Below are positions 26,157-35,673 of a DNA stretch of 40,102 nt, one piece after another. Under the pieces are notes generated by a model that saw nothing but the letters and a program-made list of their open reading frames with translations, was not told the DNA's origin and made no database searches. Every line of letters begins with the position of its first letter. Position 1 is the stretch's first letter. This DNA comes from Saprospirales bacterium (lineage in GTDB: Bacteria; Bacteroidota; Bacteroidia; Chitinophagales; CAMDFR01): NCBI GenBank assembly GCA_947464015.1, contig CANHVE010000003.1, positions 1 to 40,102 of the forward strand, read 5' to 3'. A program made the translations under genes and the position numbers.

Positions 26157-26720
26157 TTATGGTAGATCACTTGTGTTTATTTTAACTTTACCTGTAACTT
26201 GTCGAATGGTATACGAACTAAAATCTTCTTTAGCATCTAAACCTCGTCCATAGATAATTTGTTCGCTAGTTGTAATTTTTACAAATCCAGGAGTACTAAT
26301 CAATTTTTTTTTCTGACTCCAAAGCAATTCCTCTGTGTTTAGCTTTTCTCCTTTTGCATTTACTACTACCACATCGTTTTTAGCTAACATTCCTTCTATT
26401 TCTCCACTCACTTCATTAAGCACAGCATAACGAGCCGTTAATGAACTTTCAATATCTCCAGCAGGATTATAGGAATAAGCTTTGATACCTTTTGGAAACT
26501 CGGTATAATTTTTTCCTTCAGAATGATGAATGGTTTCGGTGGCAGTAATTTTCATACGCATGATTCCGTCATTACTCACATGGACTTCTACGTTTTTCCC
26601 AATTTCTTCACCTATGTTTTTTTGTGAGGCAATTTCATCTATTTTTTTCAAATCGTTTACACAGGCGCTAAATAGCAGCGTTGTACATACAAAAAACAAT
26701 ATAGGAAAGATAGATTTCAT
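26157..26720 (-). CDS. lptC: LPS export protein LptC (lipoprotein form)
   Basis: 187 residues with a lipobox ending at Cys20 (LFSAC). The mature part contains the LptC pattern: SNDGIMRMKITATETIHHSE, then FPKGIKAYSYNPAGDIESSLTARYA, SGEIEGMLAKNDVVVVNAKGEKLNTEELLW, and GRGLDAKEDFSSY, the GxGhxaxxdF signature near the end. LptC links the inner-membrane LptBFG exporter to the periplasmic Lpt bridge; in Bacteroidota it is often predicted to be lipid-anchored instead of single-pass. It is first in the long minus-strand run and has a -7 box just upstream. Confidence 0.9.
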   Translation of the reverse strand: MKSIFPILFFVCTTLLFSACVNDLKKIDEIASQKNIGEEIGKNVEVHVSNDGIMRMKITATETIHHSEGKNYTEFPKGIKAYSYNPAGDIESSLTARYAVLNEVSGEIEGMLAKNDVVVVNAKGEKLNTEELLWSQKKKLISTPGFVKITTSEQIIYGRGLDAKEDFSSYTIRQVTGKVKINTSDLP

Positions 26721-26762: not shown

Positions 26763-26790
26763 AAAAAAGGCTTAGAATTACCTAAGCCTT
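26763..26790 (-). terminator. Intrinsic terminator after the lipoprotein/barrel cluster
   Basis: AAGGCTTAG (26767-26775), loop AATTAC, CTAAGCCTT (26782-26790); on the minus strand a T-run follows at 26768-26763. It lies 12 bases after the stop of the barrel-like gene. Confidence 0.92.
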
Positions 26791-26802
26791 TCATTAGTCT
26801 AA

Positions 26803-27603
26803 TTATTTTTCTTTTTTCTGGAGTTTGATTATAGGATATAATTGGAATCGTACCCCTAAGTATCCGTTGAGGTTAGTTCCATTTGAAATTACAACAGCAC
26901 TAAATCGTTGGGCTGGCAAATTACTATAAATATCTCTTTCATAACTATCATAATAAGAGTGATAGAATCTATTAAGTCCTAAACTATAATTAACCCCTAC
27001 ATACACGGAGAAAAAATTACGACTATAACCTAATTCGGTTCCAAATTGTAAATGATATAAATGATTATTAATTGTTTTATGTTTTGTTTCAGTAAAAGCA
27101 AACTCTAAAACTAATGTGTCGTTTCTACCTAAGCCTGAACCGCTGAGTGGCTCAGTATAACTTCGATCATTAGAATAATTATAAGAAAATCCTATATTCG
27201 GACTAATATAAATTCCTTTATATATAGGCTGACGATACGCGAAACGGATTGGGATACTCCAAAAATCACCACCCCTGCCAATTCCTTGAGTAACTTTAGT
27301 TAGAAATGTTTTTTCGGTTGTATAATCAGACACTACCATAGACTGAGAAGCGCCATACATAAAAGCTTTGTGCTCCAGACCAGTACTTAGATAGAGGTGT
27401 TTATATAGTTGAATATCTATTAAAACGCCCCACATATACTTGTTGAATTGTTCGCTTTTAAAGGAAAGAGCATTATCAAGGTTATAAGTGTTGTACTGAT
27501 ACATTTTTGATATACCGTTAATATAACTTAACGAAACACTTGTACCTGCTATACCCTGTTTAATACAAAGTAAAAAAAGAAAAATAATTAATGTTTTTTT
27601 CAT
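26803..27603 (-). CDS. Predicted outer-membrane beta-barrel protein of unknown function
   Basis: 266 residues with a clear signal peptide (about 1-19, ending GIAG). The rest alternates aromatic and polar residues in short strands (VSLSYINGISKMYQYN, IQLYKHLYLSTGLEHKAF, IRFAYRQPIYKGIYISPNIG, FFSVYVGVNYSLGLNR) and closes with LGVRFQLYPIIK, as in small porin-like barrels of Bacteroidota; unusually, a KLQKKEK tail follows. No family name is assigned. It overlaps the stop of the preceding lipoprotein gene by one base (TAATG), so the two are translationally coupled and probably function together. Confidence 0.75.
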   Translation of the reverse strand: MKKTLIIFLFLLCIKQGIAGTSVSLSYINGISKMYQYNTYNLDNALSFKSEQFNKYMWGVLIDIQLYKHLYLSTGLEHKAFMYGASQSMVVSDYTTEKTFLTKVTQGIGRGGDFWSIPIRFAYRQPIYKGIYISPNIGFSYNYSNDRSYTEPLSGSGLGRNDTLVLEFAFTETKHKTINNHLYHLQFGTELGYSRNFFSVYVGVNYSLGLNRFYHSYYDSYERDIYSNLPAQRFSAVVISNGTNLNGYLGVRFQLYPIIKLQKKEK

Positions 27604-28628
27604 TAGAAATCGTTTATTTGTCGGGTTAAAAATGGATAACTAAAATAATGAACACCATCTAAAGTTTTAAAACTAAAAGTAGTAATTAATTTATAATTTT
27701 TACAGTCTCTGGTATCTCTATAAGTAATAACATCATACTTCTTTTTATTTGTAACCGTAAAATGTAATGTACCATTTACTGATGGTCTACATCTAGGAGT
27801 ATAGAAATATTCAATATCGAAAGTGCTTTCAGCTGTTCTCAGAAAATAGCTAAGATTTTGTCCTAATATATTTCCACCCGAAGGAGAGGTAGGCCAATAG
27901 TTTTCATAGTGAGAATATAGTTTTACGGAAATACCGATTTTTTTATATTCGACATTCATTCTATAAACATAATTATCTCGACCATAGAAATAGGGAAATG
28001 AATATGGGTCATCCTTTTCATTAGCACGTCTATCTCTACAGATAGATTTTGCAGCATCATCAGGATTTTCAGGACTTACTCCTCCTTGTTCTTCTAATAT
28101 AGAAAACACTTCGTCATCAAAACTAAATGACTGTATAATACTACTACCTTCACTAGCTGCTTCTAGTATAGGCAAAGAAGCTATATTGTCTTTGCTCATT
28201 ACTAAAACAGTTCTAGTTGTTGGGATTAATTTAAAGATATAATTTTGAACTTGAATGATCCCTTTATTATTTAGCACAGCAGCAACTTGATTATCACCTA
28301 ATGCCTCTGTTTCTGTAGCATTCTCTGTATATAAAGAATGAAAACCAATACTGTTTTGCCAATCAATAATTTCTTCTTCTTCAATGTAGGTAACTATAGT
28401 ATTAAAGTCTTCTTCCGATTCAAAAGCTAATCGACCATCAATTAATGAATAATGGATGGGTTTAGGTGCTTCATCTAGTTTATTAGATTGTCCTACTTTT
28501 TTGCTTGGTGTATAGATTAATTCTTTAATGTTTTTTTGTTGGTATTTTTCATCCATACCAATTTTTTTGCATGCGCTCAAGTAAAAAGTGAGCGCAATAA
28601 TTCCTAAATAAAAAATGTTTTTTTTCAT
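27603..28628 (-). CDS. Uncharacterised lipoprotein, tandem paralogue A (341 aa)
   Basis: 341 residues with a lipobox ending at Cys20 (YLSAC). No known family was recognised. Shared with the neighbouring paralogue at 28789-29814: YSLIDGRLAF near 60-69, FHSLY at 96-100, NYIFKLIP near 129-136, FSFDDEVF at 168-175, LEEQGGV at 178-184, SICRDR at 195-200, YTPRCR at 276-281 and TRDCKNY at 306-312. Cys197, Cys280 and Cys309 are therefore conserved and may form disulfides after export. The protein is probably periplasmic or at the cell surface. It starts 83 bp downstream of a shared 28-bp promoter element and is coupled to the barrel gene. Confidence 0.85.
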   Translation of the reverse strand: MKKNIFYLGIIALTFYLSACKKIGMDEKYQQKNIKELIYTPSKKVGQSNKLDEAPKPIHYSLIDGRLAFESEEDFNTIVTYIEEEEIIDWQNSIGFHSLYTENATETEALGDNQVAAVLNNKGIIQVQNYIFKLIPTTRTVLVMSKDNIASLPILEAASEGSSIIQSFSFDDEVFSILEEQGGVSPENPDDAAKSICRDRRANEKDDPYSFPYFYGRDNYVYRMNVEYKKIGISVKLYSHYENYWPTSPSGGNILGQNLSYFLRTAESTFDIEYFYTPRCRPSVNGTLHFTVTNKKKYDVITYRDTRDCKNYKLITTFSFKTLDGVHYFSYPFLTRQINDF

Positions 28629-28683
28629 GTGTTTTGTTTTAAAAATGATTAATGTTCTTTCTGGCTAGAAGTAAGTTATTTGT

Positions 28684-28738
28684 CAAAAATAATAGTAATA
28701 TAATTTTATACCTGATTATAAGCATTTGTATTCGCTTA
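28684..28738 (-). promoter_or_regulatory. Promoter of lipoprotein A with shared 28-bp element
   Basis: On the minus strand -7 TATTTTTG (28691-28684) fits TAnnTTTG. Nineteen bases upstream lies an element at 28738-28711 that matches the one before lipoprotein B at 24 of 28 positions (core AATGCTTA preceded by CGAATA). A second copy of part of the element (ACCTGATTATA, plus strand) occurs at 28765-28775, as well as at 28710-28720. Confidence 0.65.
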
Positions 28739-28788
28739 ATATCGTATAGAAAGAAAGGACTCCAACCTGATTATATTATATAATGCTG

Positions 28789-29814
28789 TTAATCAAGAAT
28801 GTTTAACGAAAAAACATCTCTTCTCCAAATCAACGTATAGTATGATTGAAAACTAAATGTGCTGCTAAGAGAATAGTTTTTGCAATCGCGAGTATTGGAA
28901 TATACATTATATGAGCCATTTTTTTTATCTGAAATGATAATATCTACTTCATTTGAAACAGTACTTCTACATCGAGGAGTATATTTGTATACTAGGTGAA
29001 ATAGCGTGTTTTTTGTTTTTAGCGAAGCACTTTCAAAAGCTCTTCTACTACTTTCAATCGTTTTATTTGTATTGGAGTATTTACAAATCAATTGAACAGC
29101 AATACCTATTTTCTTATATTCAAGTGTACCTCTAAACTCTATTGAATGCATTGATGCATCGTCTGATCTAAAGTAATAGCCAGGCTCTGTATAGTATATA
29201 GCCTGCGTTTTGGAGTTTTCGTTTGCATAACGATCCCTGCATATCGATTTTTCTTCAGTTGCTCCAGAAGGATTTACACCTCCTTGCTCTTCTAGCTTTC
29301 CAAACACTTCATCGTCAAATGAAAAAGCCTGAATCAAAGAGTTTCCATCTGTAGCTCCTTCAAGCTCATATAAATGGTCAATCGTAGCATCACTTAATAC
29401 CAATACCTTTCTGCTTGCGGGAATAAGCTTGAATATATAATGCCCAACCTGCACTATTCCATTTCTATTCAATGTTGCATAAACGGTATACTTCTCATCC
29501 TCAAGTAAAGTACTATATAAGGAATGAAAATCAATACTGCTTTCCCATCCAACAATGTCGTCTTCTTCCAGATAATTTATAAACTGATTGAAATCATCTT
29601 CATTATTAAACTTCAATCTTCCATCAATCATTGAATAGGTAATCGATTCAGGTGCATCGCTTAATTTGTGCGCTTGGTTTAAATTGTTTTTTATATAGAA
29701 CGTAAATGTTTTTAGCTCTTTCTGAATATACTTCGTTTCGCTTGTTTTTTTAGTACAAGTAATTAGAAGGACAGACAAAAAAAGTAGACTTAAATAATAG
29801 ATTTTTTTCTCCAT
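28789..29814 (-). CDS. Uncharacterised lipoprotein, tandem paralogue B (341 aa)
   Basis: From the Met at 29814 the protein is 341 residues, exactly the length of paralogue A, with a lipobox ending at Cys20 (LLITC). A longer in-frame start at 29889 would add a non-signal extension and run through the promoter, so it is rejected. Residues 50-100 align with paralogue A without gaps, about 29 of 51 identical. Conserved cysteines are Cys192, Cys282 and Cys311; Cys244 is extra. The last 25 residues differ. No family was recognised. It has its own promoter with the shared element, and 160 bp separate it from paralogue A. Confidence 0.85.
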   Translation of the reverse strand: MEKKIYYLSLLFLSVLLITCTKKTSETKYIQKELKTFTFYIKNNLNQAHKLSDAPESITYSMIDGRLKFNNEDDFNQFINYLEEDDIVGWESSIDFHSLYSTLLEDEKYTVYATLNRNGIVQVGHYIFKLIPASRKVLVLSDATIDHLYELEGATDGNSLIQAFSFDDEVFGKLEEQGGVNPSGATEEKSICRDRYANENSKTQAIYYTEPGYYFRSDDASMHSIEFRGTLEYKKIGIAVQLICKYSNTNKTIESSRRAFESASLKTKNTLFHLVYKYTPRCRSTVSNEVDIIISDKKNGSYNVYSNTRDCKNYSLSSTFSFQSYYTLIWRRDVFSLNILD

Positions 29815-29863
29815 GGGTTTAGTTATTTGATTAAAAAAGATTCTTGCCAGAAAGATGTCGGAG

Positions 29864-29918
29864 CAAAAATAGTAGTAGCTTCTACACACACCTCATTTTA
29901 AGCATTTATATTCGTTTA
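29864..29918 (-). promoter_or_regulatory. Promoter of lipoprotein B with shared 28-bp element
   Basis: -7 TATTTTTG (29871-29864, minus strand), then exactly 19 bases, then the shared element at 29918-29891. Box sequence and spacing are identical to those before lipoprotein A, although the 19-base spacer is otherwise unrelated. Confidence 0.65.
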
Positions 29919-30966: not shown

Positions 30967-32754
30967 ATGAAAAAAATAGTTTATCAAATCAGTGTAGTAT
31001 TGGCAAGTGTACTTATTTTAAGTTCTTGCGGCGGTGGTAAAAAAGGATCAAAAGTTAAATCCTCTAGAGCAGGTATCAACGAAGTAATTATTAGAGAATC
31101 GGCTGATTGTGATAAAATTAATCCATATACATCAACAAGCGCAAATTCTAGATATGTTGAAAGCAATGTGTTTATGGCTTTATTAGATGTTGATCCTAAT
31201 AACTTAGAAATGATAGGATCTTTAGCCGTATCACGTCCAACAATTACTGAAATTACAGACGGGGAATATAAAGGCGGAATGTCAATTGCTTATGAGCTTA
31301 GACCAGAAGCAAAATGGGATAATGGTTCACCAGTAACGGCAAATGATGTGGTTTTTACAATGAAAGCATTAAAAAACCCAAATACTAATTGCGAAAACTT
31401 AAGACCTTATTTTGAATTTATTAGTGATGTGGTTGTAGATCCTTCAAACAATAGAAAATTTACTTTTTTCTGTAAAGAAAAATATTTTACAGCTGAAGAA
31501 AACTCTGGGATTACCGTATTGCCTGAGCAATCATATGACCCACAAGGATTGATGAGAAAATTCACTATTAAAGAGTTGAATGATCCAAGTAAATTAAGTG
31601 CATTAAAAGTTAATCCGGATATTATCAAATTTGCAGATTTATTTAATGGGGAAGCTACAGGTAGAGAGCCTAAAAACATTGTAGGATGTGGACCATATAC
31701 AGTTGCAGAATTTACTACAGGTCAAAGAATAGTATTGAAAAGAAAAGCAAATTGGTGGGGTGATCAATTTAAAGGTAAAGTATATGGCTTTGAAGCGAAT
31801 CCTACAAAAATCACTTATGAAATTATTACCGATGAAGCTTCTGCTAAATCTTCTTTATTAGGTGAAAAAACGGATATTACTCAAGGGATTACGGCTAAAA
31901 CGTATTTAGAATTAGCTAAGACTAATATTGTTACAGATAGATACAATCCTGCAACTCCTGATCAATTTGCATATTCTTATTTTGGTTTAAATATGAGAAA
32001 CTCTAAATTAAGCGATTTACGTGTAAGACAGGCTTTAGCTCATTTAGTAGATGTAGACAAAATTATCAAAATCGTTTCTTATGGTATGGCTAAAAGAGTA
32101 ACTGGTCCAATCAGTTTTATGAAACCTTATTATAATAAAGATTTAGCTCCAATAGCTTACGATGTAGAAAAAGCTAAAACATTATTAGAAGCTGCAGGAT
32201 GGAAAGATTCAGATGGAGACGGCGTTAGAGATAAAATGATTGATGGTAAAAAAACAGATTTAACATTAGAATTAAAATATCCTTCAGGAAGTCCAGCAGC
32301 AGATGCCATTGCTTCTATGTTGACAGAATGGTGTAAATCTGCAGGAGTTACTATTACTACTTCTACAAAAGAGTGGACAGTATTCATAGAAGATACTAAA
32401 CGTCATAATTTTGAAATGTATTTTGGATCTTGGATTGGTGGACATACACTAGATGATATGAAACAAATCTGGCATACTCAATCATATAATGGAGGAGGAA
32501 ACTATATTGGATTTGGTACTATTGAATCAGATCAATTGATTGAAAAAATCAGATATGAATTAAATGAAGAAAAAAGAAATGAATATTATAAACAAATTCA
32601 AAAAATCATTTATGATCAACAACCATACATCTTCATTTCATCTCCTAAAAACAGATTGTTTATCCATAAAAGATTTGAAAACGCTAATACTTATGTAATC
32701 AGACCAGGATTCTTTGAAAAAGAATTCAGATTAAATAAAGATTTTGGTAATTAA
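30967..32754 (+). CDS. Oligopeptide-type ABC transporter solute-binding lipoprotein (SBP_bac_5)
   Basis: 595 residues with a lipobox ending at Cys21 (LILSSC) followed by a GGGKKG spacer. The family-5 fold is visible: DKINPYTSTSANSRYVESNV, RPEAKWDNGSPVTANDVVFTM, NIVGCGPYTVAEFTTGQRIV, KLSDLRVRQALAHLVDVDKI, DSDGDGVRDK and KEWTVFIEDTKRHNFEMYFG. It is paralogous to the minus-strand protein at 12965-14725. Two permease genes follow on the same strand (58 bp), so it delivers substrate, probably peptides, to that importer. A strong promoter precedes it. Confidence 0.93.
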   Translation: MKKIVYQISVVLASVLILSSCGGGKKGSKVKSSRAGINEVIIRESADCDKINPYTSTSANSRYVESNVFMALLDVDPNNLEMIGSLAVSRPTITEITDGEYKGGMSIAYELRPEAKWDNGSPVTANDVVFTMKALKNPNTNCENLRPYFEFISDVVVDPSNNRKFTFFCKEKYFTAEENSGITVLPEQSYDPQGLMRKFTIKELNDPSKLSALKVNPDIIKFADLFNGEATGREPKNIVGCGPYTVAEFTTGQRIVLKRKANWWGDQFKGKVYGFEANPTKITYEIITDEASAKSSLLGEKTDITQGITAKTYLELAKTNIVTDRYNPATPDQFAYSYFGLNMRNSKLSDLRVRQALAHLVDVDKIIKIVSYGMAKRVTGPISFMKPYYNKDLAPIAYDVEKAKTLLEAAGWKDSDGDGVRDKMIDGKKTDLTLELKYPSGSPAADAIASMLTEWCKSAGVTITTSTKEWTVFIEDTKRHNFEMYFGSWIGGHTLDDMKQIWHTQSYNGGGNYIGFGTIESDQLIEKIRYELNEEKRNEYYKQIQKIIYDQQPYIFISSPKNRLFIHKRFENANTYVIRPGFFEKEFRLNKDFGN

Positions 32755-32812
32755 TATTTTTAAAGAACTTTTCAGGGTATTCAATAAATGCATTCAAATT
32801 AAATAGAAATAG

Positions 32813-34351
32813 ATGTTTAAATACGTATTAAAAAGGTTGCTTTATTTTGTTCCTACATTTATAGTTATTTCATTAATAACGTTTATGTTAGGTCAAATGG
32901 CTCCAGGCGATCCAGTAGAATTGAAATTAAAAGGAGGAATGGGTGGATCTGCCAATGGGCAATCTTCTGAAAAAATGGCTGGTGAAAAAGCTTATATGGA
33001 ACTGAGCGAAAAACTTGGTAAAAACTTACCTGCTTTTTATTTTAGTATTACTAGTGCAGCATATCCAGATACTTTATACAAAATTCCACGTCAAAATGAA
33101 CGTAAAAATTTAGATCGTTTAATTAGTATGTATGGCAATTGGAACAATGTATCAGACTATTATAAAAACGCTAAATTACTAGAGCAAAAATTATTTCAAT
33201 TCTCTAATACAAACTTAGACGAAGCTTCATATGAAAAACTAAAAGCATTACGAGATAATAACTCCGAATTATTTATAAATTATGATAAAGTAAAAATTGG
33301 CGAATCGCTTAAAACCATTCAAGCGGCAGCTATTCATACAACCACTATCAAAACAGATAGTACTCATACAAAAACGATTCAACCTTTTATTTTTGCATTA
33401 CCAGAGGTAAACAACCTAGTTGCTAGTTACACTAAAATGAACAATGAAATCAATACCTCTAATAATTATGTACCGGCATTTCATTGGTTTGGATTAAACA
33501 ATCAATATCACCGTTGGTTATTTGGAGATGTTCCTTGGTTTGGTAAAAACGATAATCCTTCAAAAGTTTCTAAAGGATTTTTTAGAGGAGATTTTGGCAA
33601 TTCAATTCTTGATAATAGACCTGTAGCATCTATATTGATTGAGGCAGTTAAATTAACTTTATTAATTAATTTCTTCGAGTTTTTCTTTATCTATATAATA
33701 GCAATTCCATTAGGTGTTTCATTAGCCGTTAAAAAAGGAACCTCTTATGATAGAATTGTAACCACATTGAACTTTATGTTGTATTCTTTACCAGCATTTT
33801 GGATTGCAACTATGTGTATTATTTTCTTTACTAATCCTTATTATGGAGAGGCATTAAATTTATTCCCTGATCATGGAATTGGTAAAACAGGTGCAGATTT
33901 TGGTTTCTGGGAAAAAGCCGTAGACAGAGCTTATCATTTGATATTGCCAATGTTTTGTATGTTATTAGGTGCTTTTGCTTTTATTTCACGAATGATGCGT
34001 GGAAGTATGTTGAATGTGATTCGTCAAGATTATATCAGAACAGCCTTTGCAAAAGGCTTAGAACCACGCAAAGTGTTTTGGAAACACGCTTTTAGAAATT
34101 CATTAATACCTATCATCACTATGTTTGCTAGTTTTTTACCAGCGATGATTAGTGGAGCAGTTATTATCGAATATATATTTACGATACCTGCCATGGGACG
34201 TATTAGTTATGAATCAGTAGTAGCAAGAAATTTCCCAGTATTGTTTACCATTCTGATGTTTGCAGCGATACTAACCATGTTAGGAAACTTATTAGCAGAT
34301 ATTTTATACGGATTTGTAGATCCTAGAATTTCACTTACTAAAAAAGCATAA
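32813..34351 (+). CDS. Oligopeptide-type ABC permease (OppB-like) with a large insertion
   Basis: 512 residues, about 200 more than typical OppB (about 300-340). The N-terminus (LKRLLYFVPTFIVISLITFMLGQMAPGDPVELK) and the C-terminal MetI-type domain (RMMRGSMLNVIRQDYIRTAFAKGLEPRKVFWKHAFRNSLIP, then FTIPAMGRISYESVVARNFPV and LADILYGFVDPRI) are normal. The extra length lies between helix 1 and the RGDFGNSI segment, mainly residues about 82-222; this hydrophilic, Lys/Asn/Thr-rich loop should face the periplasm. The gene overlaps the OppC-like gene by one base (TAATG). Confidence 0.92.
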   Translation: MFKYVLKRLLYFVPTFIVISLITFMLGQMAPGDPVELKLKGGMGGSANGQSSEKMAGEKAYMELSEKLGKNLPAFYFSITSAAYPDTLYKIPRQNERKNLDRLISMYGNWNNVSDYYKNAKLLEQKLFQFSNTNLDEASYEKLKALRDNNSELFINYDKVKIGESLKTIQAAAIHTTTIKTDSTHTKTIQPFIFALPEVNNLVASYTKMNNEINTSNNYVPAFHWFGLNNQYHRWLFGDVPWFGKNDNPSKVSKGFFRGDFGNSILDNRPVASILIEAVKLTLLINFFEFFFIYIIAIPLGVSLAVKKGTSYDRIVTTLNFMLYSLPAFWIATMCIIFFTNPYYGEALNLFPDHGIGKTGADFGFWEKAVDRAYHLILPMFCMLLGAFAFISRMMRGSMLNVIRQDYIRTAFAKGLEPRKVFWKHAFRNSLIPIITMFASFLPAMISGAVIIEYIFTIPAMGRISYESVVARNFPVLFTILMFAAILTMLGNLLADILYGFVDPRISLTKKA

Positions 34352-35673
34352 TGGCAACGAATAACACATCTAATAATACCTCTAGAGAAATTAGTACACA
34401 GGCAGATCAAAGCTATTGGGCTATTGTAAAGAGACAATTCAAAAAGAACAAATTAGCTGTTTGGTCTTTACGTATCATTATTTTTATTATTACAGTGGGT
34501 CTTTTAGCTGATTTTTTAGCGAATGATAAACCCTTATATTGTTCTTATAAAGGCAATACTTATTTCCCTGTTCTTAAAGAATATGCAGTAGATATGCGCT
34601 TAAGTAAATGGCCCGAAGAGCTTAACAATGTGGTATGGAAAGACTTAAAATATGATGCCGTAATATTTGCTCCAATACCTTACGCTCCCGAAAAGACTGA
34701 CGATAAAAATAATGATTATAAAAGTCCAATGGGTAGTCAAGAAATCGTTTCAACACGATGGAGACATTGGTTAGGAACAGACCAATTAGGTAGAGATTTA
34801 TTATCTGGCTTGATACATGGTACTCGTATTGCCATGCTTGTAGGCGTTGTATCAATGTCAATTGCTTCCGTTATTGGTATTTTATTAGGCTCGCTTGCAG
34901 GCTATTATGGAGATGAAAAATTAAAAATTTCTCTTGCACGACTTATCCTAAATATTATAGGTGTTCCATTAGCATTGTTTTACGCATTTAATACAAGAGG
35001 CTATATTTTAGAAGATGCATTAGCAGATTCTTTTGGTAGTTTTTGTATATCATTTTTAATTAGTTTTTTCTTATTCTTGATTTTAATGCTAATCCCAAAT
35101 ATCATTACTATAGGGTTGAAAAAAATAGCTTTTTTAGATAAAAAAGTAACAATTCCAGTTGATATTTTAATTTCTAGAATGATTGAGGTCATTATGTCTA
35201 TCCCAACACTATTATTAATTCTATCTATTTGTGCAATCGTATCAAAACCATCTATCATGTTAATTATGGTTATTATCGGATTGACTGGATGGACAGGTAT
35301 AGCTAAGTTAATTAGAGGAGAATTATTAAAAGTACGTAGCCTTGAGTTTATAGAAGCAGCACAGTCTTTAGGTTATTCAGAAGCTCGTATTTTATTTAAA
35401 CACGCTATACCTAACTCACTTACTCCGGTTTTAATTTCAATTGCATTTGGTGTAGCCGGAGCAATTTTAGCAGAGTCTTCTTTATCCTTTTTAGGTATAG
35501 GTACTCAAGCAGATGTAATTACTTGGGGTAAATTATTAAGTAGTGCACGCGAATATGCACCAGCATGGTGGTTAGCTATTTTCCCAGGCTTTGCGATATT
35601 TGTAACCGTTACCATATTCAACTTCGTTGGAGAAGGTTTAACAGATGCAATCGATCCAAGACTAAAACAATAA
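34351..35673 (+). CDS. Oligopeptide-type ABC permease (OppC-like) with two extra membrane segments
   Basis: 440 residues, against about 300 in typical OppC. LGTDQLGRDLLSGLIHGTRI at 141-160 and the coupling region LEFIEAAQSLGYSEARILFKHAIPNSL, then LAESSLSFLGIG and the terminal DPRLKQ are standard. An insertion at about 188-268, right after GSLAGYYGDEK, contains two strongly hydrophobic stretches (about 195-213 and 230-255). There is also an enlarged loop before residue 130 (about 57-135). No ATPase (OppD/OppF) follows; the operon seems to end here or continue into the secreted protein at 35721. Confidence 0.9.
   Translation: MATNNTSNNTSREISTQADQSYWAIVKRQFKKNKLAVWSLRIIIFIITVGLLADFLANDKPLYCSYKGNTYFPVLKEYAVDMRLSKWPEELNNVVWKDLKYDAVIFAPIPYAPEKTDDKNNDYKSPMGSQEIVSTRWRHWLGTDQLGRDLLSGLIHGTRIAMLVGVVSMSIASVIGILLGSLAGYYGDEKLKISLARLILNIIGVPLALFYAFNTRGYILEDALADSFGSFCISFLISFFLFLILMLIPNIITIGLKKIAFLDKKVTIPVDILISRMIEVIMSIPTLLLILSICAIVSKPSIMLIMVIIGLTGWTGIAKLIRGELLKVRSLEFIEAAQSLGYSEARILFKHAIPNSLTPVLISIAFGVAGAILAESSLSFLGIGTQADVITWGKLLSSAREYAPAWWLAIFPGFAIFVTVTIFNFVGEGLTDAIDPRLKQ

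Follow-up and report, generated by a model that had tools for sequence, protein, structure and literature searches.

The surfaces of Bacteroidota are built of lipoprotein-barrel complexes, and it is mainly those with large TonB receptors that are understood. A 40,102-nucleotide stretch of a Saprospirales genome (contig CANHVE010000003.1, positions 1 to 40,102; hereafter the window) carries two lipoprotein genes of equal length next to the gene for a small predicted barrel. Do such a lipoprotein and such a barrel belong together, and what might they do at the cell surface? An earlier, sequence-only reading of this DNA had proposed a surface complex. We find that the window holds a copy of a lipoprotein-barrel module that is real, uncatalogued and spread across the phylum, with a distant link to DUF4848 and a function proposed below. 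What is new here is the scale, as the pair is widespread in Bacteroidota though absent from Pfam and NCBIfam. The features of the locus are as follows.

29890..29914, minus strand: upstream element of A, CGAATATAAATGCTTAAAATGAGGT, 18 bp before TATTTTTG
28789..29814, minus strand: lipoprotein A, 341 aa from the ATG at 29814, lipobox LLITC (Cys20)
28710..28734, minus strand: upstream element of B, CGAATACAAATGCTTATAATCAGGT, 18 bp before TATTTTTG
27603..28628, minus strand: lipoprotein B, 341 aa, lipobox YLSAC (Cys20)
27599..27607, minus strand: TAATG stop-start overlap of B and C, sequence CGATTTCTAATGAAAAAA
26803..27603, minus strand: barrel C, 266 aa, signal peptide and eight long beta-strands, predicted OmpA-like 8-stranded outer-membrane barrel
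26765..26792, minus strand: intrinsic-terminator-like hairpin and T-tail, directly past C

A duplicated lipoprotein gene is coupled to a barrel gene

The three genes lie head to tail on the minus strand in the order A, B, C. A and B are paralogues (44% identity over 334 residues, E 1e-83), and the duplication of a 341-residue lipoprotein, as read from the sequence alone, holds in its open reading frames, coordinates and lengths. The same is true of three finer points of that reading: the near gapless N-terminal half, which has a single gap region; the three conserved cysteines, which besides that of the lipobox are residues 192, 282 and 311 of A and 197, 280 and 309 of B; and the coupling of B to C, where the TAATG overlap TTTCTAATGAAA is present. 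Judged by the alignment, the equal length of A and B is a coincidence, because it contains compensating indels. A profile of the proteins' own family, of which A is itself a member, matches A at E 3e-120.

The upstream regions of A and B have a 25-bp element in common, CGAATAYAAATGCTTAWAATSAGGT, each time 18 bp before TATTTTTG, a sequence that agrees with TAnnTTTG, which we take to be the Bacteroidota -7 consensus. These are the only two copies in the 2.66-Mb genome at up to 3 mismatches, an occurrence not expected by chance. Of the twin promoters proposed earlier, the twinning is seen directly in this shared element, which would act as a promoter. Since the element is common to A and B and unique to them in the genome, the duplication probably took in the promoter region along with the gene. 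A candidate third copy, before 30857, failed on re-examination and was dropped. The terminator assigned to the end of the unit is a 12-bp hairpin with a T-tail, exactly placed past C, in a region where such hairpins are no more numerous than chance would have them (2 found, 2.4 expected). Just downstream of it (26157-26720) lies an LptC gene (TIGR04409, 1e-14; lipopolysaccharide export protein), and the opposite strand at 30967-35673 carries what, by eye, are oligopeptide-type ABC importer genes (substrate-binding lipoprotein, permease-like proteins). The window contains no Rfam RNA.

An upstream element dedicated to A and B would suit a surface sensor, wherein the complex of lipoprotein and barrel passes an extracellular signal on to a dedicated regulator. 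In line with this, divergent genes for small XRE-type helix-turn-helix regulators lie directly upstream of the lipoprotein gene in three related genomes (G001, G330 and G624; L016:5298-5639, L021:5607-6074 and L103). However, regulators of the XRE type abound in these genomes, and no regulator is encoded beside the window genes or at most other loci. We consider a sensor very unlikely.

Domain architecture and family assignment

The AF2 model of C has strands at residues 18-33, 51-67, 70-84, 108-123, 131-144, 180-195, 198-209 and 243-255, and OmpA is its nearest solved structure (Foldseek, 4e-7). Together with the signal peptide, these strands suggest that C is an 8-stranded outer-membrane barrel of the OmpA/OmpX fold, on a model of modest confidence (mean pLDDT 55), in keeping with the barrel predicted earlier. 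B is modelled as two domains, an N-terminal alpha/beta domain (residues 58-180, pLDDT mostly 65-91) and a C-terminal beta domain (residues 221-336, pLDDT about 60) modelled weakly as a sandwich; A likewise has an N-terminal DUF4848-like domain and a C-terminal beta domain. No solved relative of the N-terminal domain of B was found among the top Foldseek matches, and an ApaG/arrestin-like beta-sandwich was rejected for B on weak Foldseek matches (best 4e-3). The N-terminal domain is the better conserved of the two, both between A and B (55% versus 38% identity) and in conserved columns among 20 relatives (17 versus 8).

None of A, B and C belongs to a family in Pfam or NCBIfam. In these collections A and B match no family of the SusD, BtuG or HmuY type lipoproteins, all three proteins lack a match to the PorP-PorE/PorV families, and C matches neither OMP_b-brl (PF13505) nor OMP_b-brl_2 (PF13568), although one of 12 relatives of C matches PF13568. 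A match of C to Pfam Autotransporter (0.0044) lies below the cut-off and was taken as general barrel likeness; an NCBIfam match to Riean_0653 covers the signal peptide only, which makes its genome survey uninformative on the lipoprotein family; and a PDB sequence match to 4lb8 (E 0.067) was too weak to use. The earlier statement that A and B resemble no known family is therefore right as to catalogued models and needs amending as to ancestry, for the N-terminal domain is related to DUF4848 (PF16140), Bacteroidota lipoproteins of uncharacterised role. A and B give no match to the Pfam model of DUF4848, and a single, distant relative out of 20 has a 37-residue match below the gathering cut-off (E 0.0049). 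In profile comparison by hhalign, the N-terminal domain scores 97.6% against a set of DUF4848 and DUF4848-like proteins, from the lipobox to residue 160, and 87% against a single DUF4848 protein; a signal-trimmed profile of the lipoprotein family also finds the DUF4848 protein of genome G634 at 2.7e-4. By these profiles the domain is a distant homolog of DUF4848. The C-terminal part gave no hhalign alignment to DUF4848.

The lipoprotein and the barrel recur as a pair

The lipoprotein family is patchily distributed, occurring in about 4-6% of sampled genomes from several families and classes of Bacteroidota. Relatives were found in two of four genomes of the same family, the window's own included, in 23/399 genomes of the order and in 23/395 of the class, the last two counts including some signal-peptide-only matches as the profile then retained signal peptides. 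Weak matches confined to the first 30-60 residues proved to be signal peptides and were discarded, and with the signal-trimmed profile used instead (A12) relatives were found in 12/297 genomes across the phylum, other classes included. A narrower alignment search gave 4 loci, and a scan of genome contigs with a single protein query found nothing. Named records with relatives are a metagenome-assembled genome (MAG) labelled Chitinophaga pinensis, a Saprospiraceae MAG, a Prolixibacteraceae MAG and the isolate Anditalea andensis. Within the genus, G001 has one frame-broken lipoprotein gene and a barrel gene; none was found in G002 and G003, both less complete genomes.

Of 27 core loci read by hand, 20 have a gene for a small secreted beta-barrel immediately after the lipoprotein gene, on its strand, and the downstream partners are mostly of 189-302 aa at spacings of -145 to +118 bases. 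Among lipoprotein-like open reading frames in 400 kb from three of the genomes with the lipoprotein, only 2/38 are followed by any secreted-looking 180-320-aa gene, neither resembling the barrel C type. These counts strongly support the earlier view of lipoprotein and barrel as one unit. With signal peptides removed, leave-one-out profiles recognize 13/19 barrels at E<1e-3 and none of 598 control open reading frames (400 kb; best 0.028). Because most are recognized in this way, the barrels are largely one homologous family, which accompanies the lipoprotein from genome to genome. Divergence is too great for sequence to reveal this homology in the barrels of G372, G624, G658, Prolixibacteraceae and the DUF4848 locus and in the later barrels of L132, L133 and L137.

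Among ten intact pairs, the distance matrices of lipoproteins and barrels are correlated (r 0.74; 10,000 permutations gave no value as high). Co-inheritance accounts for this no less than co-evolution, and vertical descent alone could suffice. The pair recurs in many genera, with lipoproteins about 18-30% identical to those of the window, and it stays while the neighborhoods vary from genome to genome, which makes it a unit of its own. The window carries the family's N-terminal motif set (GRLxF, LNxxGIIQVxxYIFK, FSxDDxV) with a homologous barrel as the next gene. It is the pair that is conserved, not the trio of tandem lipoproteins and barrel suggested earlier, which occurs in this genome only. 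Arrangements elsewhere include tandem lipoproteins without a barrel (locus L020; the Saprospiraceae relative G372) and three successive barrel-like genes behind one lipoprotein gene in G028 (L105:5598-7942).

Broken lipoprotein frames adjoin intact barrels

In about 8 relatives the lipoprotein frame is broken, and the adjacent barrel is intact in all of them but Anditalea. The frame of G001 is broken by a 41-bp tandem duplication (L016:5891-5974), that of G372 near an A-tract (L019:7190-7260), and stops or frameshifts interrupt the lipoprotein in G217, G585, G658, G512 and G028; besides L016 and L019, the loci of the broken frames are L100, L105, L108, L110, L028 and L076. The breaks may reflect decay, switching (phase variation) or assembly error. 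Since broken lipoprotein frames adjoin intact barrels, the barrel can persist without its partner.

This persistence, along with the 7/27 core loci in which no small barrel follows the lipoprotein, is what would be seen if the two were co-transcribed envelope genes that form no physical complex, for example two that contribute independently to a stress or nutrient response. We think this unlikely, as strongly diverged pairs stay associated in unrelated neighborhoods, an association hard to keep without joint function. The pattern of breakage, spanning a tandem duplication, an A-tract, stops and frameshifts beside mostly intact barrels, together with the patchy distribution, could also mark a phage-facing antigen or an element of antagonism, in which the lipoprotein would be a target or weapon at the surface that is often inactivated, with the barrel as its partner. 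Against this, no toxin, defense or known-family match was found, a defense-system search with PADLOC included, and the breaks could partly be assembly errors, since many of the genomes look like metagenome assemblies; we regard this explanation as highly improbable.

Larger barrels as alternative partners

Some relatives of A and B adjoin partners of a different kind. TonB-dependent receptors with a Plug domain directly follow the lipoprotein gene in L131, L135 and L136; in L075 a barrel, a DUF4249 protein and a TonB receptor follow in a row; and a DUF4249 lipoprotein is next in L056 and L078. The relatives encoded before TonB receptors or DUF4249 lipoproteins suggest an uncharacterized uptake system. 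Over the majority of loci, the lipoprotein's partner is thus some type of outer-membrane barrel. In SusD-SusC, BtuG-BtuB and HmuY-HmuR, too, an outer-membrane lipoprotein is encoded beside its barrel, and the likeness extends to the TonB-dependent receptors that several relatives adjoin. The window differs in that the partner is the small 266-aa, 8-stranded barrel, where these systems have a 22-stranded TonB receptor, and not a receptor with a Plug domain. PorP-PorE/PorV of the type IX secretion system also combine a Bacteroidota barrel with a lipoprotein; in contrast to these, no type IX genes were recognized beside the window pair. C has the fold of the OMP_b-brl/OMP_b-brl_2 and OmpA/OmpX barrels, with its eight long strands and OmpA as best PDB match, and differs from OMP_b-brl and OMP_b-brl_2 in that it and its relatives form a family tied to the lipoprotein.

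A proposed two-part outer-membrane receptor

A surface complex of lipoprotein and barrel is the best reading of these observations. Specifically, our favored explanation, held tentatively and at a little under even odds, is that B and C, plus the duplicate A, represent one copy of a two-gene module, found in Bacteroidota, that encodes a two-part outer-membrane receptor. It builds on co-encoding, the shared ancestry of most barrels, the domain layout and the alternative partners, to which surface exposure, docking and ligand binding would be added as follows. Once flipped to the outside of the cell, the lipoprotein would use its conserved N-terminal DUF4848-like domain to dock on the extracellular side of the cognate barrel, leaving the variable C-terminal beta domain to bind ligand. 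Since an 8-stranded barrel has no wide pore, the small-barrel complex would serve binding, adhesion or sensing, and relatives with a TonB-dependent receptor as partner would work in uptake, like SusD or BtuG. A, with its own promoter copy and diverged C-terminal domain, would likely serve the same barrel as an alternative ligand-binding subunit. In a bolder form that we doubt, the proteins would represent an unrecognized Bacteroidota receptor class in which a DUF4848-like adaptor couples a fast-changing ligand-binding beta domain to small 8-stranded barrels or TonB-dependent receptors, the barrel outlasting a lipoprotein frame that is often turned off or lost.

Some lipoproteins are threaded, flipped or held at the surface by barrels, and C could instead be a dedicated display or anchoring factor of this sort, not a receptor partner. 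The stop-start coupling with the lipoprotein first, the co-inheritance of usually one barrel per lipoprotein and an 8-stranded barrel without a pore all fit such a role. The three barrel-like genes of G028, the TonB receptor in place of the small barrel at other loci and the barrel-less tandem at L020 do not, and Bacteroidota already have a general route of lipoprotein surface export (PMC5080379), all of which makes a display factor rather improbable. The signal for that export is C-X-K-(D/E)2 (PMC5080379). Mature lipoproteins of the family have lysine at +3 in 18/24 and an acidic residue at +4 in 14/24, with the full signal in only 4/24, and it is absent from A (CTKKTS) and B (CKKIGM). The N-termini of the family thus partly resemble the export signal, which counts in favor of the receptor, and those of A and B count against it.

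Returning to the receptor reading, a lipoprotein paired with a small barrel gives a way into a group of hypothetical genes, and links them to the uncharacterized DUF4848 and DUF4249 proteins. DUF4848 proteins are like A and B in being lipoproteins and in their N-terminal domain, and a DUF4848 gene, too, can precede an overlapping outer-membrane barrel. In L077 a clear DUF4848 gene (1.3e-40) has a 4-nt overlap with the OMP_b-brl_2 barrel gene that follows it (2e-17). The run there is DUF3244 - DUF4848 - OMP_b-brl_2 (L077:683-2924), a difference from the window locus, which has no DUF3244 gene in front. In product names this run parallels BT3221-3223 of B. thetaiotaomicron (DUF3244, DUF4848, hypothetical protein), and BT3223 may, at a guess, be a barrel. 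Iron depletion lowers BT3221-23 jointly by 10-14.6-fold (PMC10434189), and as this iron-responsive run belongs to a gut species that is genetically tractable, the module is directly testable.
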